Source: Marinobacter alexandrii
Lineage (GTDB): Bacteria; Bacteroidota; Bacteroidia; Cytophagales; Cyclobacteriaceae
Direction of reading: 5' to 3'
DNA: 64,000 bases
Assembly (NCBI GenBank): GCA_039984955.1
Contig: JBDWTN010000005.1
Span: 434,001-498,000 of the forward strand
Shown: positions 10,058 through 51,856 of the stretch, piece after piece
How positions within the stretch are numbered: the first letter of the stretch is position 1
Layout: each line of letters starts with the position of its first letter
Notes under the pieces: generated by a model
The model's database searches: none
Seen by the model: the letters and a program-made list of their open reading frames with translations, nothing else
What the model was told of the DNA's origin: nothing
Program-made: the position numbers and the translations under genes

Positions 10058-10704
10058 TTCTTCTTTGGAATACGAGGTTTGAAAACTGGTTTTGCTGCAG
10101 GTTTTTTCGAGACGTCTGCTTCCTTCTTGATTTCAGGTAACTCAGGCTTAGCCTTCAACTTTGTTACTTGATGCTCTTCAAATTCCTTCTTCTTCTCAGC
10201 TATTTCACGATCATTCATTTTACTAAATGAGAAGTTGTGATCTAGAATATCTGTGGTACTAAAATCAAATTCTTTTGTCATTGTGAGGCACTCTGTAGGA
10301 CAGACTACTGTGCATAGTCCGCAGAAACAACACTTTGACATATCTATATCAAATCTGGCTGCATGTATTCTTAAGGGTGTTCCATCTGAGGTCTGTCCGA
10401 AAACTTCCGGAGATCTCACTGGCTCAATATCAATGCAATCAACGGGACATATTTTGGCACATTTGTCACAAACTATGCAATCGTCAATTTCATTATGCAA
10501 TTGATACCTTCCATGGTCAGGAATAGGTATGCTTTCTTTGGGGTACTGTACTGTGAATGTGCCATTGGCCTTTTCAAAATAATTTTCTTCTGCTACCCAC
10601 TCTTTTTTACGACTTCTTCTTGCTTGAAAAAAGTACTTGATGGACAAAAACATCCCTTTCCATGTAGTTTTTGCTGATGATGATATGTTACGGAAATAGC
10701 CCAT
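10054..10704 (-). CDS. nuoI: NADH-quinone oxidoreductase subunit I (2x[4Fe-4S])
   Basis: 216 aa. Two ferredoxin motifs, CIVCDKCAKICPVDCI and CCFCGLCTVVCPTECL, bind clusters N6a and N6b, which pass electrons towards N2 and quinone. An amphipathic N-terminus precedes the core. After about residue 165 there is an extra Lys/Pro/Ala/Glu-rich tail (for example KKPAAKPVFKPRIPKKK), making the protein about 50 aa longer than the E. coli subunit. It is 3 nt from nuoH and overlaps nuoJ by 4 nt. Confidence 0.96.
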   Translation of the reverse strand: MGYFRNISSSAKTTWKGMFLSIKYFFQARRSRKKEWVAEENYFEKANGTFTVQYPKESIPIPDHGRYQLHNEIDDCIVCDKCAKICPVDCIDIEPVRSPEVFGQTSDGTPLRIHAARFDIDMSKCCFCGLCTVVCPTECLTMTKEFDFSTTDILDHNFSFSKMNDREIAEKKKEFEEHQVTKLKAKPELPEIKKEADVSKKPAAKPVFKPRIPKKK

Positions 10705-10707
10705 TGT

Positions 10708-11685
10708 TTACCCTATGATCCAAAGTTTCCACATAGCACAAATGAATAACATCAAAATGGATATAGGTGTTAAATATTTCCATGACAGGCTCATGAGTTG
10801 ATCGACTCTCAATCGAGGAAGCGTCCACCTTATCCACATTTGGATGAAAATCAATAGCATTGACTTAGAAAGCAACCAAAAAGATCCCCAAATAGGTCCT
10901 TCTGCAAAATTTGATATTAGAGAGCTCCATCCTCCTAAAAAAAGAACTGTACCCAGAATTGATAACAGTAGCATCATTCCGTATTCTGAAAGCATGAACA
11001 TGCCCCACCTGAAACCCGAATACTCTGTATGATAACCTCCTATTAATTCTGATTCTGACTCAGGAAGATCAAAAGGCGTTCTGTTTGATTCTGCTAATCC
11101 GGAAATGAAAAATATGATAAACGGAACGATCAATACCGGATGCCGAACAAGATTCCATGATAGAATACCTGAATCAGATTGAAGCACACTCATTTCATTT
11201 AGATTGAGTGTGCCTGAAATAATGACGACACATAGAACACTCAAACCTAAAGGCACTTCGTATGAAACAATTTGTGCGATAGAACGCATAGCGCCATATA
11301 AGCTATACTTATTATTAGAGGCCCAACCGGCCATTAAGATTCCCAATACATCTAAAGAAACAATCGCTAGAAGGAAGAAGACACCACTTGTGATGTTTGA
11401 ACCTATCAGTTCTTCATTTATTGGTAATACAGAGAAGCCCGTGAAAACTGCAGAAAATACAATAATTGGAGCTATGAGAAATGGAATCAAGTCAACGGCA
11501 TTGGCACGTATATCTTCTTTTTGAAGCATCTTCAGCAGGTCAGCTATAGTTTGCAGTATCCCTTTTGGACCTACTTCCATTGGACCAAGCCTATTTTGAA
11601 TAAACGCGGCAGTCTTTCGCTCTGCATATACAGCGAAAACCACGAAGATCAACAGAAAGGAGAGATAGAAGACGAATGAAATCAC
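10708..11685 (-). CDS. nuoH: NADH-quinone oxidoreductase subunit H
   Basis: 325 aa with about 8 TM segments. It contains the quinone-chamber signatures AERKTAAFIQNRLGPMEVGPKG, at the end of TM1, and SNRTPFDLPESESELIGGYHTEYSG. The start is GTG at 11685: no ATG lies in frame between it and the preceding stop, which is the TAA of the M43 protease gene only 18 nt upstream in the same frame. The N-terminus is a little shorter than in E. coli NuoH. First gene of the nuoHIJKLMN run; nuoA-G are not upstream. Confidence 0.95.
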   Translation of the reverse strand: MISFVFYLSFLLIFVVFAVYAERKTAAFIQNRLGPMEVGPKGILQTIADLLKMLQKEDIRANAVDLIPFLIAPIIVFSAVFTGFSVLPINEELIGSNITSGVFFLLAIVSLDVLGILMAGWASNNKYSLYGAMRSIAQIVSYEVPLGLSVLCVVIISGTLNLNEMSVLQSDSGILSWNLVRHPVLIVPFIIFFISGLAESNRTPFDLPESESELIGGYHTEYSGFRWGMFMLSEYGMMLLLSILGTVLFLGGWSSLISNFAEGPIWGSFWLLSKSMLLIFIQMWIRWTLPRLRVDQLMSLSWKYLTPISILMLFICAMWKLWIIG

Positions 11686-11703
11686 ACTCGAATTTACGGC
11701 TCT

Positions 11704-14511
11704 TTATTGTTTAAGAAAACGTCTTGTAATCTTTTGTCCTTCAAGTTCGAAATGAATGAAGTAGAGACCTGATTCAAGAGATTCAACATTGACATTTTCG
11801 TCATAATCCAGTTGGACTAGAACTTTCCCTGACAAGTCACTAATTGATAAATATTTAACTCTATTCTTAAGCTCATTAGAAAGAGATACTGAAAGTATTT
11901 TCTGAACAGGATTGGGATAAACCTCCAACGACCTAAAATCATCTTCTGCACCTAAGACAATGAACTCATCTGACATAGTGCTGCATGCTCCGTTAGAGAC
12001 TCTTACTGAATACAATCCATTTCCATCAGATGAGATAGTGCCAGATGTTTCTTCAAGTACAAGTTCTCCTTCGTAATACCATTCTACTGTTTGCCCTTCG
12101 GATAACAAGACTGAAAGTTCTCCATTTGACTTAGATATGATCGGCTTAGCAGGGTATTCATTTTCATACCCAATAGTGACTTCCATGGTCTCTTCACTAT
12201 CTGAGGAATTCCTTACGATAACATTATATGTTCCAGGGGAAAGGTTTGAAATCACACTTGATTCACCATAGGTTTCACCGTCAATACTATACTCATATAT
12301 TCCCTCTTTATTCACAGAGATAGACATGGATCCGTCTGCAATATCAGAGCATGAGGACTTTGTTACTTTGATATCAGAGATAAAGAAACCCGATTTTGAA
12401 AAAAAGTAATCATCTGATGTTATGCTGCACATTCCGTTTGAAACTTTTACTGAATAGTTGCCACTTTCATCAACAGAAATAGAATTAGAATTTACCTCAG
12501 GAATTAGAATTCCATTGATATACCATTCCACTGTTTGCTCCTCTATCAAATTAATAGACAGCTCTCCATTTGATTCTGATATAACTGGTTTGGATGGGTA
12601 TTGATTTTCGTAACCTACGGTGACTTCCATGGTTTCTTCATGGTTCAATACATTTCTAACTACAATGTTATATGTGCCTGGTGAAAGATTCGAAACTATA
12701 CTTGATTCGATAAATGTTTCACCATCGAGGCTATATTCAAATGCACCATACCCCTCTACAATAATTTCTATAGATCCATCTTCAATATCCGTACAAGTAG
12801 CATCTTTTACTTCAATATCTGAAATAGAAAAATTTGTATCAAAAGTTTCAATGGTGTAATTGTCAACAAATAAGGAATTCCCATTATCAGATGTCGTTTT
12901 CAACGCTATTTCAGCTACATCAACACTTTCATCCACTTCAAAAAAAATAGTCTCTGATTTCCATTGATTACTTGAAGGAAAAAAGAATACCTGATCTTCA
13001 TTAGGTGCAGTAGCCAAATCTTGTCCCTCTTTTGACCACACGGACTGCCATTCTCCACAAGGATCCCGATAGACGACCTCTAGGCGATCTTCTGTATTAT
13101 CATTTAAAGGTGCATATGCGTAATCAATGTTTAGCAAAAAACCTTTATCAACGGCAGAGTTCAATGGATCAATTACTAAATAATCTTCTTGGCCATTTTT
13201 CATAAAAACAAGTACTACATATGCTGATTTACTTCCATCTGATCCAACATTTGTTTGCTGCCAAGTATCAGTCCCACCACTAATCACAAGCTCTTGTAAT
13301 GACTCTTCTTCAAAGGAACCGCTTAAAGTATTCACTTCTGAGGTAATCTCTCCTCTAACGGAGACTAATTCAGTGAAAGTCTTTGTATTCGCAATATCAT
13401 TTTCGTCTTGAACAGTTAAGGAAACATCATAAGAACCGCTTGTTGTATAGACTACAGATGGATTAGCCTCAGTAGAAGTTGCCGGATCACCCCCTTCAAA
13501 CGTCCAAGAATAAGAAACTGCATTTATTGAGTTATCTGAGAAGTTTATCAACTCACCTTCACATATTTCTGCATCTTCAACATCGAATGCAGCAAGTACA
13601 TTATCCGTAAGTAAATAGTTTCTATCGTTTAGGTATGCAGAATTTATACGATTGTATTGCCCATTAGTAAAAAGATTTCTACAGGGTTTGGTTGAATAAG
13701 ACATAATATTGGTAGGGTCTGGCCGAAAAGCATCTCCATTAGGATCAACTTCACTATCAGTATAATTACAATCACCGTCTACCTTTCCAGACACATTCGG
13801 GTCTGCTTCGGTATCACAAAGTTGATCGCCATTTGTATCACAATTAGATGGTGCTGGTGTACAATCTGGTTCTATGCATCCTACTGATTCTTCACCTGGC
13901 CGAATTACGACTTCATCAGTGGTGCCTGTGTTTGTTGTCCCATGGGTGTGATACAAGTAAAAAAAATGTCCTATCTCATGTGGAAGAGTGCTACCATTTG
14001 TAGTACATCCGTTATTCATAAGAATTACGTCTGGTCCTCCTGGGAAATATGCATAACCACAATAGAATGAACCCGCTCCATTACTTACTGAGTTTGCAAA
14101 ATAAATATTTATCACACCATCGTAATTGTACTCAGAAGTAAGTTCTGACTCATCACCCGTCACAAAATCATAGTACTTATTATCATCAATGTATCTAATG
14201 TCCAGGTAGAAAAAAGACATGTTTGCATTGAGATAAAAACTATTAACATTATCTAAAGCATCTTGTAGTTCTTCTTCAGATAATCCACCAGTGCCATCAT
14301 CCTGCCTTATAACATGTGCAATAATTGCAATTTCGCTAACCCCAGAAGCTGCTAAAGTCACTAAATCATTTGACTGTTCCAATTCAACAAGTTGGTTCAA
14401 TCTCTGCTTTTGAGTTAATGAAGGCTCAGGAGTTCCACATGCTAGATTCTGTCCATATGCGAATCCTGAAAAAATGAATAAAATGAATAAGAATACTATC
14501 CTGGCAACCAT
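11704..14511 (-). CDS. Secreted M43-family metalloprotease with PKD, SprB-like repeats and T9SS C-terminal domain
   Basis: 935 aa. Signal peptide 1-20 (cleavage near AYG-QN). The metzincin domain has H178-E179-x2-H182-x5-H188 as the zinc site and a Met-turn at NIMSYS (M270), as in M43 (pappalysin/cytophagalysin). The usual glycine of HExxHxxGxxH is Tyr185 here. A PKD domain follows (about 308-388, YSWTFEGGDPATS), then a region like a carbohydrate/MAM-type beta sandwich. Two tandem copies of about 160 aa each contain an SprB-like unit (DGSIEI...YSLDGE) plus an Ig-like half. The T9SS type A sorting domain is at about 860-935 (LEVYPNPVQKILSVSL...GLYFIHFE). Likely exported extracellular peptidase. 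It overlaps the upstream lipoprotein gene by 16 nt. Confidence 0.9.
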   Translation of the reverse strand: MVARIVFLFILFIFSGFAYGQNLACGTPEPSLTQKQRLNQLVELEQSNDLVTLAASGVSEIAIIAHVIRQDDGTGGLSEEELQDALDNVNSFYLNANMSFFYLDIRYIDDNKYYDFVTGDESELTSEYNYDGVINIYFANSVSNGAGSFYCGYAYFPGGPDVILMNNGCTTNGSTLPHEIGHFFYLYHTHGTTNTGTTDEVVIRPGEESVGCIEPDCTPAPSNCDTNGDQLCDTEADPNVSGKVDGDCNYTDSEVDPNGDAFRPDPTNIMSYSTKPCRNLFTNGQYNRINSAYLNDRNYLLTDNVLAAFDVEDAEICEGELINFSDNSINAVSYSWTFEGGDPATSTEANPSVVYTTSGSYDVSLTVQDENDIANTKTFTELVSVRGEITSEVNTLSGSFEEESLQELVISGGTDTWQQTNVGSDGSKSAYVVLVFMKNGQEDYLVIDPLNSAVDKGFLLNIDYAYAPLNDNTEDRLEVVYRDPCGEWQSVWSKEGQDLATAPNEDQVFFFPSSNQWKSETIFFEVDESVDVAEIALKTTSDNGNSLFVDNYTIETFDTNFSISDIEVKDATCTDIEDGSIEIIVEGYGAFEYSLDGETFIESSIVSNLSPGTYNIVVRNVLNHEETMEVTVGYENQYPSKPVISESNGELSINLIEEQTVEWYINGILIPEVNSNSISVDESGNYSVKVSNGMCSITSDDYFFSKSGFFISDIKVTKSSCSDIADGSMSISVNKEGIYEYSIDGETYGESSVISNLSPGTYNVIVRNSSDSEETMEVTIGYENEYPAKPIISKSNGELSVLLSEGQTVEWYYEGELVLEETSGTISSDGNGLYSVRVSNGACSTMSDEFIVLGAEDDFRSLEVYPNPVQKILSVSLSNELKNRVKYLSISDLSGKVLVQLDYDENVNVESLESGLYFIHFELEGQKITRRFLKQ

Positions 14512-41167: not shown

Positions 41168-42907
41168 ATGAGTAAAAATAAGAACGTCACCTTTGCCTGG
41201 GCAGTCCGAAACATCATCTGGCCAAGAAGAAAAACCATCTTCATCGGGCTATTACTAATCATTATCAGTAGGCCTGCAGGCCTGGTTCTTCCAGCAGCCA
41301 CTAAATATCTACTTGATGATGCTGTCCCAAATAAGGATTTTGAGATGCTCAAACTGATAGTCATTGTCATCGTAATCTCATTAGCCGTACAGGCGGTTTC
41401 CTCTTTCCTCCTTACACGGATATTGAGTGTAGAAGCTCAATTTCTAATCTCAGAGCTAAGAGTAAAAGTCCAGAAAAAGATTCTATCTCTCCCTATCAAT
41501 TTCTTTGATAACAATAAGTCTGGAGCCTTAGTATCCCGAATCATGACTGATGTGGAGGGCGTTAGAAATTTGGTAGGCACTGGACTTGTGCAACTTATCG
41601 GAGGCACAATTACCTCCGTATTAGCTTTGATATTGCTACTCAGAATTAGCCCTTCCATGACCATATTCACCTTAATTCCAGTTGGGCTCTTTGCCGTGAT
41701 TGCGATGAAGGCGTTTGGAAGGATAAGACCCATCTTCCGTGAGAGAGGAAAACTGAATGCAGAAGTCACTGGGCGATTAACGGAAACTCTCAATGGCGTT
41801 AGAGTAATTAAAGGATTTAACGCTGAAGAATCTGAAAACAAAACATTTGAGGATGGGGCCAGAAGCCTATATGAAAATGTGAAATCAAGCTTAACAGCTA
41901 CAGCACTTGTCACCAGTTCCGGCACTTTTCTGATTGGTTTCGCCAGTGCTGGAATCCTGGCAATGGGTGGTTACTATATGATAGAAGATAATCTGACTGC
42001 TGGAGAATTGATTTCTTTCATTTCCTTACTTGCCTTCATGATTGCTCCGATTGTGCAAATGAGTAATATTGGAAGCCAGCTTACTGAAGCATTCGCAGGA
42101 CTTGATCGTACGGAGGAAATCATGAAAATGGATCCAGAAGACATGACAGAAGATCGACCAATCTTGCTTGATCAAGTCCACGGTGATATCGTCTTTGAAA
42201 ATGTATCCTTCGCATACGAAGAAGGCAAAGAAGTATTGAAAGATATCTCATTCAAAGCTCCTCCGGGATCAGTAACAGCTCTGGTGGGAAGTTCTGGTTC
42301 AGGCAAATCTACTACTGCTAGTTTGGCTGCTACATTTTTAAGTGCCGAAAAAGGAATACTTACGATTGATGGTCATGATATGACTAAAGTGAATCTTTCA
42401 AGTTATCGGAGACATCTGGGAGTTGTGTTGCAAGATGATTTTCTGTTTGAAGGGACTATTCGTGAAAATATTCTTTTCCCCAGACCCGATGCAACCGAAT
42501 CAGAACTACAAGATGCAGTAAAAGGAGCTTACGTTAATGAATTCACTGATCGCTTTGAAGATGGGCTTAATACCGTCATTGGTGAGCGCGGCGTGAAACT
42601 ATCCGGAGGACAAAAGCAACGGATTTCCATTGCGCGTGCATTACTGGCTAACCCGAAAGTCATCATTCTGGATGAGGCTACATCTAATTTGGATACCGAA
42701 AGTGAGACCTATATTCAAAAGAGCTTGGATGGCTTAATGAAAGATCGGACTACCTTTGTGATTGCGCACAGACTAAGTACCATCCGTAAAGCAAATCAGA
42801 TTTTAGTGATAGAAGAAGGTCAGATCGTAGAGCGCGGAACACACGATGAACTTATTGCAAAGGAAGGAAGATACTTTGAGCTATATACATATCAAAGCAG
42901 AATTTAA
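41168..42907 (+). CDS. ABC exporter, fused permease-ATPase (MsbA/MDR type)
   Basis: 579 aa. An N-terminal six-TM domain (about 20-310) is followed by an ATPase domain with Walker A ALVGSSGSGKSTTA, Q-loop VVLQDD, signature LSGGQKQRISIARAL, Walker B VIILDEATSNLD and H-loop VIAHRLS. Works as a homodimer or heterodimer exporting lipids or drugs; substrate unknown. It lies just upstream of an AraC regulator on the same strand. Confidence 0.95.
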   Translation: MSKNKNVTFAWAVRNIIWPRRKTIFIGLLLIIISRPAGLVLPAATKYLLDDAVPNKDFEMLKLIVIVIVISLAVQAVSSFLLTRILSVEAQFLISELRVKVQKKILSLPINFFDNNKSGALVSRIMTDVEGVRNLVGTGLVQLIGGTITSVLALILLLRISPSMTIFTLIPVGLFAVIAMKAFGRIRPIFRERGKLNAEVTGRLTETLNGVRVIKGFNAEESENKTFEDGARSLYENVKSSLTATALVTSSGTFLIGFASAGILAMGGYYMIEDNLTAGELISFISLLAFMIAPIVQMSNIGSQLTEAFAGLDRTEEIMKMDPEDMTEDRPILLDQVHGDIVFENVSFAYEEGKEVLKDISFKAPPGSVTALVGSSGSGKSTTASLAATFLSAEKGILTIDGHDMTKVNLSSYRRHLGVVLQDDFLFEGTIRENILFPRPDATESELQDAVKGAYVNEFTDRFEDGLNTVIGERGVKLSGGQKQRISIARALLANPKVIILDEATSNLDTESETYIQKSLDGLMKDRTTFVIAHRLSTIRKANQILVIEEGQIVERGTHDELIAKEGRYFELYTYQSRI

Positions 42908-42924: not shown

Positions 42925-43788
42925 ATGGATGAAATAAAGAAATACCACCTTTACAAAGACGATCACTCAAAATTACATTTTCAGATTAATGATGCTGCTA
43001 GCTATTGTGCTAAAAATGAAGCTCATTGCTATAAGCCACATCAACATTCTTTCTATCAGTTCATTTGGTTTCAAGAAAGTGGGTTACACTATGTAGACTA
43101 TGAGGTTATCGAGCACCAAGCAAATACACTCTTCTTTTTAGATAAAAAACAGGTACATAACTTCTGTAAGGATTCTTCAAACAAGGGGATTTTGTTTCAT
43201 TTCGATGAAGTATTTCTACATCAGCAAGACCCAGAGGCAGACGGCTGGCTTCAACATAAGCTATTCAATGCCATTGGTCCTCCATATATTCAGCTAACAG
43301 AGGGAGAAGTAAATTTTTTCAAAATGATCGCTGAAAAATTAGGTAAGGAGATGGAAAACAAAGACTACAACTACGCAAAACAGGTTTTTTACCTATTCCG
43401 ACTTTTAACCTTATCTATTGAGCGACAGAAGCATATTCAGTCCGATATTTCATCAATAAGCGATAAAGATTATAAGATCGCCGTAGCGTTTAAAAAAGCA
43501 ATTCAAGAAAATATCCATGCCTTTTTAAGTGTTGATCAATTCAGTGAAAAAATCGGTGTGAGCCCAAAGAAATTGACTAGTATTTCAAAAAAATACCTGG
43601 ACGATACTCCACTGAATGTTATTCATGCAAGAAAAATTCTTGAAGCCAAACGGCAACTGTCAAATACAAATACTTCGATCAAGGAATTGGCTTATTCGTT
43701 AGGCTTTGATCAACCCACCTACTTCACGAAATACTTCAAAAAACATACAGGTCTTACACCAAAGGAATTCACAAATCAAGTTCTTTGA
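42925..43788 (+). CDS. AraC-family transcriptional regulator
   Basis: 287 aa. An N-terminal cupin-like ligand domain (KPHQHSFYQFIWFQESGLHY) is followed by a C-terminal AraC double helix-turn-helix (about 190-287: LSVDQFSEKIGVSPKKLTSISKKYL and IKELAYSLGFDQPTYFTKYFKKHTGLTPKEF). Downstream genes for an amine oxidase and an SDR carry matching direct repeats in front of their promoters, so they are its likely targets. Confidence 0.93.
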   Translation: MDEIKKYHLYKDDHSKLHFQINDAASYCAKNEAHCYKPHQHSFYQFIWFQESGLHYVDYEVIEHQANTLFFLDKKQVHNFCKDSSNKGILFHFDEVFLHQQDPEADGWLQHKLFNAIGPPYIQLTEGEVNFFKMIAEKLGKEMENKDYNYAKQVFYLFRLLTLSIERQKHIQSDISSISDKDYKIAVAFKKAIQENIHAFLSVDQFSEKIGVSPKKLTSISKKYLDDTPLNVIHARKILEAKRQLSNTNTSIKELAYSLGFDQPTYFTKYFKKHTGLTPKEFTNQVL

Positions 43789-43845
43789 TTTACCATTATT
43801 TGACTCAATACTATCATTTTGTTTGACTTCCATGCTTCATTTTTG
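43789..43845 (+). promoter_or_regulatory. Putative AraC-type operator plus promoter of the amine oxidase gene
   Basis: TTTACCATT at 43789-43797 is followed 21 bp later by the related ACTATCATT (43810-43818). After exactly 19 nt comes CATTTTTG (43838-43845), one mismatch from TAnnTTTG. The ATG is 11 nt further on. The layout is identical to that before the SDR gene at 45022. Confidence 0.6.
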
Positions 43846-43856
43846 CACTCACTAGA

Positions 43857-44933
43857 ATGAAGGAATCAAAAAAGGAAATCACAATCATTGGAGCTGGGCT
43901 CACTGGCCTTACGCTTGCATACATTCTAAAAAAAGAAAATTATTCAATACGTATAATTGAGGCTCGAGAAGAGATCGGCGGTCGAATACTATCCGTCAGG
44001 AAAGAAAACCTTGCCCCTCTGGAAATGGGTGCAACATGGTTTGGGCACAAGCATACTCAGATCAATGAAATACTTGCTGATTTAGGAATTAATTCTTTTG
44101 AACAGCGACTTGGGGAAAACGCTATATATGAGCCTCTATCTACCAGTCCTCCTCAGCTTGTCAAACTCCCTCCTAATGGTGATGAATCAAGTTTCCGAAT
44201 AAAAGATGGATCTATTTCACTTATTCAGTGCTTGGCAAATCACCTGCAGTCTGCTTGTGAAATCTTCACCTCCAAAAAGGTAATCTCTATTGAGAAAAGT
44301 ACCGATGGCATATGCGTCAAAACCGAGAACGATGAGTTTAAAAGTGATGTTGTGGTTTCTACATTGCCACCCTACCTACTATTAAAGACGGTAAGCTTTT
44401 CCCCAGCCCTACATCCGAAAGTAAGAGAGGTTATGAGAGAGACTCACACATGGATGGGCGAATCAATCAAAGTAGGCTTAAACTATAAAAAGCCATTTTG
44501 GCGAAAAGCCAATTTGAGCGGGACTATCTTCAGTAACGTAGGGCCTATTCCTGAAATGTATGATCACGCTAATTTTGAAGATTCACACTTCGCGTTGAAA
44601 GGCTTTTTGAATGGTGCTTACTTTGCCCTGAAGAAAGAAGAGAGACTTGGGTTAATCTTGACCCAACTTCGAAAATATTTTGGAAATCAAGCAGATGATT
44701 TCATTTGGTACGAAGAGAAAGTATGGAGAAATGATCCTCTGACTTTTTCACCCTATGAATCAGACATCCTTCCTCATCAGAACAATGGTCATCCTGTTTT
44801 TGCGCAACCATTATTAGATAATACCTTTTTCATTGCAGGTTCTGAAACAGCTTCACAATTTCCAGGTTACATGGAAGGAGCCATTCGCAGTGCACAATAT
44901 GTAGCCGCTTCAATTAAAGGAATGTCGAAATAA
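43857..44933 (+). CDS. Flavin-containing amine oxidase-like oxidoreductase
   Basis: 358 aa. Dinucleotide-binding motif IIGAGLTGLTLAYIL, then IEAREEIGGRI (the second glycine pair of the amine-oxidase family) and the C-terminal FAD contact FFIAGSETASQFPGYMEGAIRSAQ. These match the FAD/NAD(P)-binding monoamine-oxidase superfamily. Cytosolic, with no signal peptide. Predicted target of the upstream AraC regulator. Substrate unknown. Confidence 0.9.
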   Translation: MKESKKEITIIGAGLTGLTLAYILKKENYSIRIIEAREEIGGRILSVRKENLAPLEMGATWFGHKHTQINEILADLGINSFEQRLGENAIYEPLSTSPPQLVKLPPNGDESSFRIKDGSISLIQCLANHLQSACEIFTSKKVISIEKSTDGICVKTENDEFKSDVVVSTLPPYLLLKTVSFSPALHPKVREVMRETHTWMGESIKVGLNYKKPFWRKANLSGTIFSNVGPIPEMYDHANFEDSHFALKGFLNGAYFALKKEERLGLILTQLRKYFGNQADDFIWYEEKVWRNDPLTFSPYESDILPHQNNGHPVFAQPLLDNTFFIAGSETASQFPGYMEGAIRSAQYVAASIKGMSK

Positions 44934-44941
44934 CAGATTGA

Positions 44942-44999
44942 TTTTACCATTCTTCGTCCTGTTTTTACCATTTCTACTCTTCGAGCAATTCTAGCTTTG
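44942..44999 (+). promoter_or_regulatory. Putative AraC-type operator plus promoter of the SDR gene
   Basis: Two exact copies of TTTTACCATT (44942-44951 and 44963-44972) are spaced by 21 bp. After 19 nt follows TAGCTTTG (44992-44999), a perfect TAnnTTTG box. The ATG at 45022 is 22 nt later. The downstream repeat covers the -33 region, as for class II activation. Confidence 0.7.
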
Positions 45000-45021
45000 A
45001 GTCAATCAAAAATTAAAGACG

Positions 45022-45756
45022 ATGACAAAACAAGCATTAATTATTGGCGGCACAAGTGGTATAGGAAAAGCCATAGCAGAACAGTTACTCAATGACGGTG
45101 TAACTGTCCACTTGGTAGGAAGAAGTCCAGAAAAGATTGACGATAACCAACAACTGATCAAGTACAAGACTGACATCACCAATTCAGATGATGTAAAAAA
45201 ACTTATTGATCAGATTGAACAATTTAATGGATTGGACTACTTGGTGAATGCCTCTGGTATTTTTGACCCCAAACCATTTTTAGACCATTCTGTAGAAGAT
45301 TATGACTCCTATCTGGATTTGAACCGAGGGTTCTTTTTTATCACTCAAGCTGCTGCCAAAGTAATGAAAAACAGCAACGGAGGATCAATTGTAAACGTGG
45401 GATCAATGTGGGCTAAGCAAGCAGTCAAAGCAACACCTTCGTCCGCTTACTCTATGCAAAAGGCTGGACTTCATTCATTTACTCAACATCTCGCAATGGA
45501 GTTGGCAGATCACAAGATTCGAGTAAATGCCGTATCTCCAGCAGTAGTAGATACACCAGTTTATCACGGGGTATTTGGTAGCGAAGAGGCAGCCAAAGAA
45601 GCACTCGTAGGTTTCAATAACTTTCATCCCATTGGACGGAATGGTACCGCTAATGATATCGCTTCTGCAATTCACTTTTTACTGTCTGATCAATCCAGTT
45701 GGATCACAGGATCTATTTTGGATATTGATGGCGGTGTGATGGCTGGAAGAAATTAA
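45022..45756 (+). CDS. Short-chain dehydrogenase/reductase
   Basis: 244 aa classical SDR. NAD(P)-binding motif [19 protein letters not shown] (NAG-type stabilising motif), catalytic Ser in NVGSMW and the active-site pair YSMQK (YxxxK), with the C-terminal GSILDIDGG. Substrate unknown. Likely co-regulated with the amine oxidase, and 19 nt upstream of the ABM-like gene. Confidence 0.93.
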
Positions 45757-45775: not shown

Positions 45776-46159
45776 ATGAAATTCTCTAAATCAATACTTT
45801 TCTTATCGGCTATTGCCGTGTTCACTTTTATAACATTAACAAGCATGTCCAATTCAAATCAAAGCAGTTCAGGAGCTTATCTTGAAATAACACTAGATAT
45901 CAAAGATGAAAATCGAAGCAACGCCGGAGCTGTGTACGTTAAATACAAGCAGCCATTCCTAGATCGAATCAAAGGAGCAGTTTCAAAACAGTTACTCCTT
46001 AGATCAGACGATGTTCAGGTATTGCATGGATTCAAAACAGAAGAAGACGTCAATGAATATTTGAAATCGGAATTGTTTCAACAGGATGTAGTAAGGGAAC
46101 TAAAGCCATATCTTGAAAGTGATCCTGAAATTAGAATTTATTCTGTTTTCTCCAATTAG
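45776..46159 (+). CDS. Exported ABM-like (dimeric alpha-beta barrel) protein
   Basis: 127 aa with a signal peptide (MKFSKSILFLSAIAVFTFITLTS). The remainder is a ferredoxin-like segment of the antibiotic-biosynthesis-monooxygenase or EthD type (KQLLLRSDDVQVLHGFKTEEDVNEYLKSELFQQDVVREL). Third gene of the putative SDR transcript, followed by a strong terminator. Function unknown. Confidence 0.7.
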   Translation: MKFSKSILFLSAIAVFTFITLTSMSNSNQSSSGAYLEITLDIKDENRSNAGAVYVKYKQPFLDRIKGAVSKQLLLRSDDVQVLHGFKTEEDVNEYLKSELFQQDVVRELKPYLESDPEIRIYSVFSN

Positions 46160-46239: not shown

Positions 46240-46863
46240 ATGGATGAAATACGTCAGTCCCTACCTTTTTTAAGCAATGAACTTATCACAAAGATCAAAG
46301 AAGTATCAACCATAAATGAGATACCAAAAGACACTGAAATCTTACGAGAGGGGCAATTCGTCAAGGTAATCCCGGTTGTATTATCTGGATTGGTTAAAGT
46401 GTTTTCTAGGTTTGGTGATAAAGAACTACTGCTCTATTATATAAGGCCAAAAGAAAGTTGCATTATGTCTTTTGCATCTAGTCTCGAAAATGATCCTAGC
46501 AAGGTATTTGCCAAAACAGAAGAAGACTCAAAAGTTCTTCTACTCCCCGTCAAGGAAGTCTCTAATTGGATTCAACAATTCCCTAGCATCAACACTCTTT
46601 TCTATCAACAATACAATTTGCGTTATAGTGAACTCTTAGACACGATTAACCATGTAATTTTTGACAAAATGGATAAGCGACTCAACGATTATCTTGTTGA
46701 AAAAAGTAAGCTTACCAAACAACACTTTATTAAGATCTCTCATCGTCAAATCGCTAGCGAGTTAGGTACTGCTCGAGAGGTTATTTCCAGAGTTATGAAG
46801 AAATTAGAGAATGAAGGTAAAATACTCCAACATTCCAATGGAATAGAAATTAAGTCCTGGTGA
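46240..46863 (+). CDS. Crp/Fnr-family transcriptional regulator
   Basis: 207 aa. An N-terminal cyclic-nucleotide-binding-type barrel (EIPKDTEILREGQFVKVIPVVLSGLVKVF) is followed by a long dimer helix and a C-terminal winged HTH (ISHRQIASELGTAREVISRVMKKLENEGKI). The N-terminus lacks an FNR-like cysteine cluster, so ligand or redox sensing is open. A palindrome overlapping its stop codon fits control of the downstream DUF2892 unit. Confidence 0.92.
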   Translation: MDEIRQSLPFLSNELITKIKEVSTINEIPKDTEILREGQFVKVIPVVLSGLVKVFSRFGDKELLLYYIRPKESCIMSFASSLENDPSKVFAKTEEDSKVLLLPVKEVSNWIQQFPSINTLFYQQYNLRYSELLDTINHVIFDKMDKRLNDYLVEKSKLTKQHFIKISHRQIASELGTAREVISRVMKKLENEGKILQHSNGIEIKSW

Positions 46864-50334: not shown

Positions 50335-50742
50335 ATGAACCGAGTAACAATTAGTCAGATCAAAAATGAAATAGAGATATCTACTGCTCGAAGTGGTGGG
50401 CCTGGTGGACAGCATGTCAATAAAGTAGAAACTAAAGTCATTCTCAGATTCAATGTCATTAACTCTCGTTCGCTTACCGATATCGAGAAAGAAATAATCA
50501 AGGCTGCACATGAAACAAAACTCACCAAAGAAGGTGAGCTCATAATTACCTCTGACGAAAAGCGCTCCCAACTAAAAAACAAGGAAATTGCCTTCAAAAA
50601 ATTAGACCGCCTACTAACTAAAGCCTTCGTTAAAAAGAAAATTCGTAAGTCAACACAACCAACCAAAGCAGCAAAAAAGAAGCGACTGGACGCAAAAAAG
50701 AAACATAGCGAAAAGAAGAAAATGAGGCAAAAACCAATCTAA
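50335..50742 (+). CDS. arfB: Peptidyl-tRNA hydrolase ArfB-type ribosome rescue factor
   Basis: 135 aa. GGQ release-factor motif in STARSGGPGGQHVNKVETKV and a basic, Lys-rich C-terminal tail (KKKRLDAKKKHSEKKKMRQK) that inserts into the empty mRNA channel in ArfB/YaeJ. Rescues ribosomes stalled on mRNA ends without a stop codon. No RF codon-recognition domain, as expected. Monocistronic, divergent from padR. Confidence 0.95.
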   Translation: MNRVTISQIKNEIEISTARSGGPGGQHVNKVETKVILRFNVINSRSLTDIEKEIIKAAHETKLTKEGELIITSDEKRSQLKNKEIAFKKLDRLLTKAFVKKKIRKSTQPTKAAKKKRLDAKKKHSEKKKMRQKPI

Positions 50743-50839
50743 ATACATATTTAAGTAAAATGCTTAAATGTATTTAGGATTTTACCCGCAATCCCATAGA
50801 GGCTAGATTCCCTTAGTCTTGTAGTGTATAACATTAGTT

Positions 50840-50932
50840 ATGATAGCATTAATTTTCTCAATAATACTAGTAGGTCTATTTATTCCCACAGATCAAATAT
50901 GGTTTACTAGAAAAAGAAAACGATTAGGGTGA
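50840..50932 (+). CDS. Possible 30-aa membrane peptide
   Basis: ATG ORF with a hydrophobic start (IALIFSIILVGLFIP), then WF and a basic end (TRKRKRLG). It is followed after 16 nt by a hairpin terminator, which supports a short transcript. Without homologues the coding claim stays weak. Confidence 0.35.
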   Translation: MIALIFSIILVGLFIPTDQIWFTRKRKRLG

Positions 50933-50948
50933 TTATTTGTAGAAATGT

Positions 50949-50979
50949 TTTCCGATCACGAGTGATCGGAAACTTTTCT
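50949..50979 (+). terminator. Hairpin terminator in the arfB-DUF6089 interval
   Basis: TTTCCGATCAC (50949-50959) and GTGATCGGAAA (50962-50972) are exact inverted repeats, followed by CTTTTCTG. It ends either the arfB or the 30-aa ORF transcript. Confidence 0.65.
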
Positions 50980-50998
50980 GCAATATTTTTGAATCCTA

Positions 50999-51856
50999 AT
51001 GAAAAATCTCCTCTCCGTATTTTTCTTACTTACAAGCTTAATTGCCACTGCTCAGAATTTCCTATCGTGGCAATTCAACGATAGATACTTTTCAGTTTCA
51101 TTGGGAACTGGCACTTCTACCTATTTAGGAGAACTCAATAATCGGAACAGCATAAACAATAATCTTTCCTTAATTAGCGGAGGAATAGAGGCCAGGCTTT
51201 TAAATAGAGTGGCTGCAAGAGTTGACCTAAGTTACTTCTCATTAAAAGGATCCGATTCAAATGCGGGTGACAGCACATTCCAGCGTCAACGTAACCTCTC
51301 GTTCAATTCCAGAAATTTTCATACTCAACTACACCTCATCTATTATTTAAAACCCTATAAAGGTGATTATTATAAAAGATGGAATTTTGATCCATTCCTA
51401 TTCTCAGGTGTAGGGTATATGAAATTTAATCCGACAGCAGAACTTGGAGGAGAACGATATAATCTTAGAGAAGCACAAACAGAAGGTGTTCAATACAAAA
51501 AATGGGTAACCACCATCCCTATTGGCATTGGTGGAAAATTTAAAGTGAACGAGTTCTTTAATGTAAACCTTGAAATATCTTATCACTTTACATTTACTGA
51601 TTATCTAGATGACGTGTCGGATAGGTATGCACTTGAATTTCAAAGCACTACTTCAGAATTTTTGAGTGATCGTAAAGATGAAATTGGCGTAATCGATCCT
51701 GAGATTTATGATCAAATCCTGCCCGGAGCTGTAAGGGGTAATCCTGATGACAATGATAGTTTCTTGCAAATAAGCTTAAGAGCCGAAATTTTTATCCCTC
51801 CTAATCTTTTCAAGAAAAAGAAAAAAGCAATTATTAAGAAGCCTTCGGCTTATTGA
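50999..51856 (+). CDS. DUF6089 outer-membrane beta-barrel protein
   Basis: 285 aa. Signal peptide (MKNLLSVFFLLTSLIATA-Q), then the family start WQFNDRYFSVSLGTGTSTYLGELN. Alternating strands follow with the segments LHLIYYLKPYKGDYYKRWNFDPFLFSGVGYM and GIGGKFKVNEFFNVNLEISYHFTFTDYLDDV, typical of small OmpA-like eight-strand barrels in Bacteroidota. The C-terminus is lysine-rich. Tail-to-tail overlap of 7 nt with the aminotransferase gene. Confidence 0.88.
   Translation: MKNLLSVFFLLTSLIATAQNFLSWQFNDRYFSVSLGTGTSTYLGELNNRNSINNNLSLISGGIEARLLNRVAARVDLSYFSLKGSDSNAGDSTFQRQRNLSFNSRNFHTQLHLIYYLKPYKGDYYKRWNFDPFLFSGVGYMKFNPTAELGGERYNLREAQTEGVQYKKWVTTIPIGIGGKFKVNEFFNVNLEISYHFTFTDYLDDVSDRYALEFQSTTSEFLSDRKDEIGVIDPEIYDQILPGAVRGNPDDNDSFLQISLRAEIFIPPNLFKKKKKAIIKKPSAY

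Follow-up and report, generated by a model that had tools for sequence, protein, structure and literature searches.

A 21-bp-period direct repeat before an amine oxidase gene and a dehydrogenase gene, a probable operator of the adjacent AraC-family regulator

Gene order, repeats and promoter boxes

By the list of open reading frames and their Pfam matches, the window (the whole 64,000-nucleotide stretch analysed here) holds genes for an ABC transporter, an AraC-family regulator, an amine oxidase, a short-chain dehydrogenase/reductase (SDR), a 127-aa protein and a Crp-like regulator, in that order on the forward strand (Table 1). An earlier note had described, before both the oxidase and the SDR genes, a direct repeat of 21-bp period followed by an octamer matching TAnnTTTG, and reading the sequence back reproduced these features exactly in coordinates and letters: an exact pair before the SDR, an imperfect pair before the oxidase, and at both promoters a gap of 19 nt from the second copy to the octamer (44973-44991 for the SDR, 43819-43837 for the oxidase). 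The oxidase repeat begins on the base right after the araC stop codon (TGA, 43786-43788).

Table 1. Genes, predicted operators and promoter boxes of the locus (window coordinates)
Feature	Coordinates	Strand	Basis
ABC transporter gene	41168-42907	+	ORF, Pfam
AraC/XylS-family regulator gene, 287 aa, presumed repeat binder	42925-43788	+	ORF, Pfam, AlphaFold model, fold matches
Oxidase operator (predicted), promoter-distal copy TTTACCATT	43789-43797	+	Sequence read-back
Oxidase operator (predicted), promoter-proximal copy ACTATCATT, 6/9 match	43810-43818	+	Read-back, matrix scores
Oxidase promoter -7 octamer CATTTTTG, one mismatch to TAnnTTTG	43838-43845	+	Read-back, conserved spacing
Flavin amine-oxidase-family gene, 358 aa	43857-44933	+	Pfam Amino_oxidase 9.4e-49
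SDR operator (predicted), promoter-distal copy TTTTACCATT	44942-44951	+	Read-back
SDR operator (predicted), promoter-proximal copy TTTTACCATT	44963-44972	+	Read-back
SDR promoter -7 octamer TAGCTTTG, perfect TAnnTTTG	44992-44999	+	Read-back, conserved spacing
SDR gene, 244 aa	45022-45756	+	Pfam adh_short_C2 3.2e-53
127-aa protein gene, no Pfam family	45776-46159	+	ORF
Crp-like regulator gene	46240-46863	+	ORF, Pfam

Both promoters thus carry the Bacteroidota housekeeping -7 box, whose first T is not conserved across the sites described below. TAnnTTTG covers -12 to -5, and a -33 element is known from Bacteroides, according to the available portions of the respective papers (PMC9723704; PMC7366714). 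With the octamer at -12 to -5, the proximal copy would lie at about -40 to -32 and the distal copy at about -61 to -53. The proximal copy sits where a TTTG near -33 would be, and the oxidase promoter has a TTTG at 43821, about -29. Direct repeats two turns apart beside the -33 region, a placement that had been likened to the AraC-type layout, thus occur at both promoters. The oxidase promoter also has two copies of TTTGACT, at 43799-43805 and 43821-43827, 22 bp apart and overlapping the operator.

The AraC-family regulator

Pfam confirmed the AraC-family identity proposed for the regulator (HTH_18, E 3.3e-20; HTH_AraC, E 3.9e-12) and with it a C-terminal double helix-turn-helix, at 72.6 bits for HTH_18 (cut-off 33.6) and 46.4 bits for HTH_AraC (cut-off 26.6). 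Its AlphaFold model (pLDDT 91) is rich in beta strands towards the N terminus and helical towards the C terminus, and in structure comparison of the model the sensor part resembled that of RhaR and the DNA-binding part those of AraC, MarA and relatives. The sensor part matched the RhaR regulatory domain 5u93_B, which we take to be a cupin, with a TM-score of 0.78 (of target) and E 8.9e-6, and so appears to be of the cupin type. Cupin-type N-terminal sensor domains are common in the metabolic subgroup of AraC/XylS factors. In 30 aligned orthologues (alignment A3, from which L054 was omitted since its araC frame looks interrupted), H39, H55, H64, H78 and H92 of the sensor part are invariant and C81 is near-invariant (absent in L055), with no second conserved Cys; these conserved residues may or may not matter to sensing.

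The protein did not qualify as RclR (21.3 bits against an NCBIfam cut-off of 400), nor do the 30 orthologues share an RclR-type redox-active cysteine pair; it likewise scored below cut-off for HpaA, the 4-hydroxyphenylacetate regulator (93.4 bits against 274.65 in NCBIfam). At 287 aa, and with AraC HTH families as the only families found in Pfam, it lacks the architecture of a hybrid two-component system (HTCS). Autoregulation of araC through this type of site found no support, there being no matrix match above 10 bits in the available sequence upstream of araC in the window and the orthologue loci.

Conservation of the repeat beside araC

Searching for the regulator over one genome per species (84,980 species) gave 55 loci, of which 28 (L032-L059) align near full length at 42-53% identity and were taken as orthologues, and 27 (L060-L086), with low identity or short aligned segments, were treated as paralogues. 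Directly behind araC, 26 of the 28 orthologue loci carry a 21-bp-period repeat (not L040 or L050), and it also lies beside araC in all five further orthologues from the window's own family (L094/L197, L195, L198, L208 and L209; at least 41% identity); none was found beside araC for a 33% paralogue from the family (G120, L199). A related SDR (56-72% identity) is encoded directly downstream of araC in 24 of the 28 orthologue loci, the L039 SDR aligning over its last 194 residues only. Loci that appear to share a genome were counted once (L003/L050, identical in sequence behind araC; L056/L196; L094/L197; L036/L207), and the counts should not be taken as independent events, because L033/L034/L057 and L048/L049/L052 look like related lineages.

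For training, the best two-copy match in the roughly 200 bases following the araC stop was taken as the site. Among 29 aligned sites, including both from the window, the TACCAT columns are nearly invariant in both copies (A or G at the second position of the proximal one), a weaker GTCTC-like box lies 3' of the distal copy, and conservation extends to the A and TTTG in the -7 box, whose first base is poor (T in 5/29). The ANNTTTG box stands at one fixed distance in 27 of these sites (all except L056 and L059) when TTTG may also read TTTA, TTCG or TTCA, and in 25 the repeat starts immediately behind a stop codon. Read by eye, L198 (2340-2460) and L208 (near 1414) keep the 21-bp period with TTTG 3 nt closer, possibly a second spacing class; L195 has no well-placed -7 box.

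The conservation of the repeat in relatives, proposed earlier as a check, therefore held for the most part where an orthologue of the regulator exists, and the congeners proved uninformative, as all nine searched lack both an AraC orthologue at E ≤ 1e-40 and a strong site at E ≤ 1e-3. Across 295 genomes of the family, the regulator was found in 10 (E ≤ 1e-40) and a site in 7 (E ≤ 1e-3, strict filters), with a strong site in 4 of the 10 genomes with AraC versus 3 of the 285 without (P = 2e-5); leaving out the genomes that supplied training sites, G067 (L036) and G307 (L056), this became 2 of 8 versus 3 of 285 (P = 0.006). A local scan found the repeat beside araC in 8 of the 10 AraC-bearing genomes (not G011 or G120). 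Of the three sites in genomes without AraC, one precedes an NmrA-like gene (G019) and two lie inside reading frames (G071 and G178); weak sites of the latter kind, in G071, G178 and L188, were taken as chance matches.

Significance of the two sites

The exact pattern TTTACCATTN{11,13}TTTACCATT occurs once in the 4.88-Mb genome that contains the window, at the SDR site, and the reversed pattern does not occur. A loose pattern (TACCATT twice, with at most 2 mismatches) gave 144 matches against 115 for the reversed control, close to background, so the repeat alone cannot find targets; the full model of 58-60 columns can. Two alignments were used, each of 26 of the 29 sites, A1 without L034, L052 and L059, and A2 without both window sites and L094.

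A 58-column matrix built from 27 sites of other genomes scored the SDR site at 34.3 bits and the oxidase site at 28.0 bits, for which 2.4e-5 and 7.5e-4 chance matches per genome are expected (2 x 4.88 Mb, order-0 background). Within the window, a 26-site matrix gave 32.1 bits (SDR) and 27.3 bits (oxidase), the next best position scoring 3.0, and in Markov sequence (4 x 0.5 Mb) a single position exceeded 10 bits with the all-site matrix. A covariance model trained with the window sites included ranked the two sites at E 2.9e-7 and 2.4e-6 over the whole genome, with the next match at 0.12; without the window sites in training, the SDR site came first (E 2.6e-5) and the oxidase site narrowly second in 4.88 Mb (E 0.025, the third being 0.094), E values from a rough calibration. 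The SDR site is therefore significant unaided; the oxidase site, which the matrix score makes significant, rests on that score, its second rank, its position as in relatives, and comparative evidence. Further members of the regulon were not found in this genome by either covariance model, 0.12 and 0.094 being the best E values beyond the two sites.

Sites away from araC and the extent of the regulon

Twenty genomes were scanned whole with covariance model R1, and 18 have a site at E ≤ 5e-5, most such sites belonging to the training set. Others lay outside that set. At L181 the site (E 2.7e-5, with an imperfect distal copy) stands before an SDR gene, and at L187 (E 2e-4) before an amine oxidase gene whose product is 53% identical to that of the window, with no araC frame in either 3-kb locus; L181 comes from the same genome as L040, the orthologue locus whose araC has no adjacent site. 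The L185 site (E 3.3e-8; the upstream sequence covers 263 bases only) stands before a gene similar to the DJ-1/PfpI gene of L034, and a fragment of an oxidase comes next (52% over 87 residues). Other sites precede an NmrA-like gene (L180, E 9.9e-6, in G019, whose best AraC match is E 8e-28) and a DUF4493 gene (L036, at 2920). In the orthologue loci L056 and L209, the gene behind the site is one of the isochorismatase cluster (L056) or a frame that resembles, by sequence, the second OsmC cluster (L209).

The sites at L181, L187 and L185 indicate that, in some genomes at least, oxidase and SDR are independent members of one regulon. The oxidase would belong to it only in some lineages, because most of its homologues lack a site: among 29 oxidase loci drawn from 39 oxidase-bearing genomes of the family, 28 have no matrix score above 3, L094 alone exceeding it, and G102, G177 and G307 have no site at the oxidase even though the regulator is present. 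AraC at E ≤ 1e-35 is missing from 33 of the 39 genomes. In the congener G002 (L089), an oxidase gene (60% identity) begins 14 nt after the same ABC-transporter gene, the next matching sequence corresponds to window positions 50363-51738, and AraC, SDR and the further genes between are missing from that locus; nor does the G002 genome contain the regulator at E ≤ 1e-40 or a site at E ≤ 1e-3. Either AraC, SDR and operator entered an oxidase-bearing locus, or the congener lost them.

The small regulon proposed earlier comprised the oxidase, the SDR and the 127-aa protein, described as ABM-like; its first two members are upheld by the L187 and L181 sites, and the third is not. The 127-aa protein has no Pfam match at E ≤ 0.001 (at E ≤ 10 the only one is SAM_3, 0.085), and the ABM fold found no backing in Pfam, which gave no ABM match, or in a single-sequence structure model, which at pLDDT 43 was unusable. 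Its two relatives among the 295 family genomes (L211 and L212, 56-59% identity) read as 95 aa without the N-terminal extension, and neither has such an operator site nearby. The L211 relative has one weak match, to SchA_CurD (E 0.086, 13.4 bits against a cut-off of 24.2), and this sub-threshold match may hint at a related fold. With 19 nt between the SDR stop and its start codon, the 127-aa gene may share a transcript with the SDR. In this genome the regulon seems limited to the amine oxidase and SDR genes, the 127-aa gene being a possible passenger. A Crp-like gene lies about 0.6 kb upstream in L211, compared with just downstream in the window.

Proposed mechanism and alternatives

The AraC reading is well supported for the oxidase and the SDR by the significance of the sites, the conservation on the araC side and the L181 and L187 sites. 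We infer binding, activation and the type of signal, and consider it highly probable that both repeats are operators of the adjacent AraC-family protein, which would recruit polymerase at the oxidase and SDR promoters. Two subunits would occupy adjacent positions on the same side of the double helix, spaced by two turns, with the proximal half-site overlapping the -33 region; on detection of a signal by the sensor domain, RNA polymerase would be recruited to a weak housekeeping promoter (-7 box ANNTTTG). AraC-type activators that contact sigma have their proximal site placed in this way, over -33, and most AraC proteins with this layout are activators. Judged from sequence, the adjacent regulator very probably uses the shared repeat to switch a small set of genes, perhaps for detoxification.

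Activation does not follow from position by itself, since a protein on the proximal copy over -33 could also block polymerase; the regulator might then act by repression, or by repression and activation together, with a ligand that relieves it. The constant spacing of the -7 box and its poorly matching first position fit instead an activator-dependent promoter, and we regard a repressor role as unlikely. That the repeat so often begins right after the araC stop codon would also fit an element of the 3' end of the araC transcript, with a part in processing or termination, for example, and none as an operator. Such an element gives no reason for the conserved -7 box spacing, and a second copy of it stands before the window SDR; the same element before SDR and oxidase genes at L181 and L187, away from any araC frame, largely refutes the transcript-end explanation, which we hold to be very improbable.

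A third alternative concerns which AraC protein reads the sites. Matrix matches above 10 bits occur in 7 of 55 paralogue loci (0.48 Mb, both strands) versus one in 2 Mb of simulated single-strand sequence, which suggests that a wider AraC subgroup might share the half-site code, and the genome of the window itself has 22 AraC-like matches, so that one or more other AraC-type regulators could read the sites as well. Against this, the sites adjoin this particular regulator in its orthologues, and two genomes rich in AraC-like matches (40 in G003, 35 in G020) that lack an orthologue have no site at E ≤ 1e-3; we think additional readers quite improbable, and keep the adjacent regulator as the presumed binder of both repeats.

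Comparison with known AraC-type systems

Known systems are compared here as far as the available portions of the cited papers describe them. In Bacteroides thetaiotaomicron, the operators of HTCS regulators are direct repeats at an average distance of 21 bp (PMC3878776, 2013), and HTCS monomers have been proposed to sit on one side, two turns apart; spacing, AraC-type domain and phylum are the same as here. The HTCS are periplasmic-sensor kinase/response-regulator hybrids for glycan use (PMC3878776), whereas here a one-component protein stands beside oxidoreductases. The araI1-araI2 pair of Escherichia coli AraC likewise has 21 bp from TAGC to TAGC in direct orientation, going by the sequence in a primer table (PMC2893085), and differs in signal, phylum and core (TAGCATT, here TACCATT). 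The four half-sites of the window agree with the 17-bp I1 at 10, 11, 10 and 10 of 17 positions, a likeness that is suggestive only, as it was made without a shuffle comparison. RclR, the hypochlorite sensor of E. coli and Pseudomonas, is also an AraC-family regulator of a small oxidant-defence set (PMC7464077), from which the present regulator differs in its score against the RclR family and in having one near-invariant Cys in place of a pair. YqhC of E. coli is an AraC/XylS activator that adjoins NAD(P)H-dependent reductase genes and answers reactive aldehydes; the reductases under its control are aldehyde reductases (PMC5297802), and the neighbouring reductase here is an SDR.

The architecture is thus already known for AraC proteins, including those of Bacteroides, and the regulon is new; judging by titles and the openings of abstracts, we found no open-access paper on it. 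Nothing known about AraC proteins is overturned. What the locus offers is a candidate stress-type regulon in Bacteroidota and a precisely defined promoter geometry, in which a one-component AraC protein is paired with its probable operator. The pair should help to predict targets elsewhere in the phylum and might supply an inducible promoter element.

Neighbour genes and a candidate signal

Genes in an interval reaching 3.5 kb upstream and 7 kb downstream of the araC start were clustered by single linkage over the 28 orthologue loci and the window, and one representative of each named cluster was scanned with Pfam. The SDR cluster is present in 25 of the 29 loci (the L034 member being a distant SDR at 5 kb, and the shortened L039 frame falling outside the cluster), followed by OsmC-like, amine oxidase and isochorismatase-like genes (5/29 each), a second OsmC-like cluster (4/29), carboxymuconolactone decarboxylase (CMD) and alpha/beta hydrolase (3/29 each), and DJ-1/PfpI (2/29). 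Most recurrent neighbour genes have no site of their own, and several follow the SDR in the same direction. OsmC, isochorismatase-like, CMD and DJ-1-type genes are typical of the response to peroxide, hypochlorite or electrophile stress. OsmC-like and CMD genes were induced by hypochlorite in biofilms, according to the available portion of PMC7464077.

The OsmC, isochorismatase-like, CMD/AhpD-like and DJ-1/PfpI genes that neighbour the regulator or are targeted in relatives suggest a role in detoxifying electrophiles or oxidants, and from this gene content we guess at a signal of the electrophile/oxidant type. A wider picture, tentative and in our view rather doubtful, would be of a regulon in several lineages of Bacteroidota. 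In it the His-rich sensor of the one-component AraC protein would detect a reactive electrophile or oxidant through a bound metal or C81, and an invariable unit of operator and promoter, placed at the araC stop codon, would let the protein turn on an exchangeable set of enzymes for detoxification (SDR, amine oxidase, OsmC, isochorismatase-like, CMD, DJ-1/PfpI); related AraC subgroups of the phylum would use the same half-site code.

Similar repeats near other AraC proteins

Similar TACCATT repeats of 21-bp period were seen at L010 (2263), L016 (2365), L069 (8740), L073 (7374; first copy only good), L075 (7315) and L076 (7754), within about 700 bases of AraC proteins 23-35% identical to that of the window. 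Locus L032 has a second cluster (10427-13552) with an AraC paralogue (32%), an oxidase, a carboxymuconolactone decarboxylase and an SDR (67%), and a half-degenerate version of the repeat lies before this SDR.
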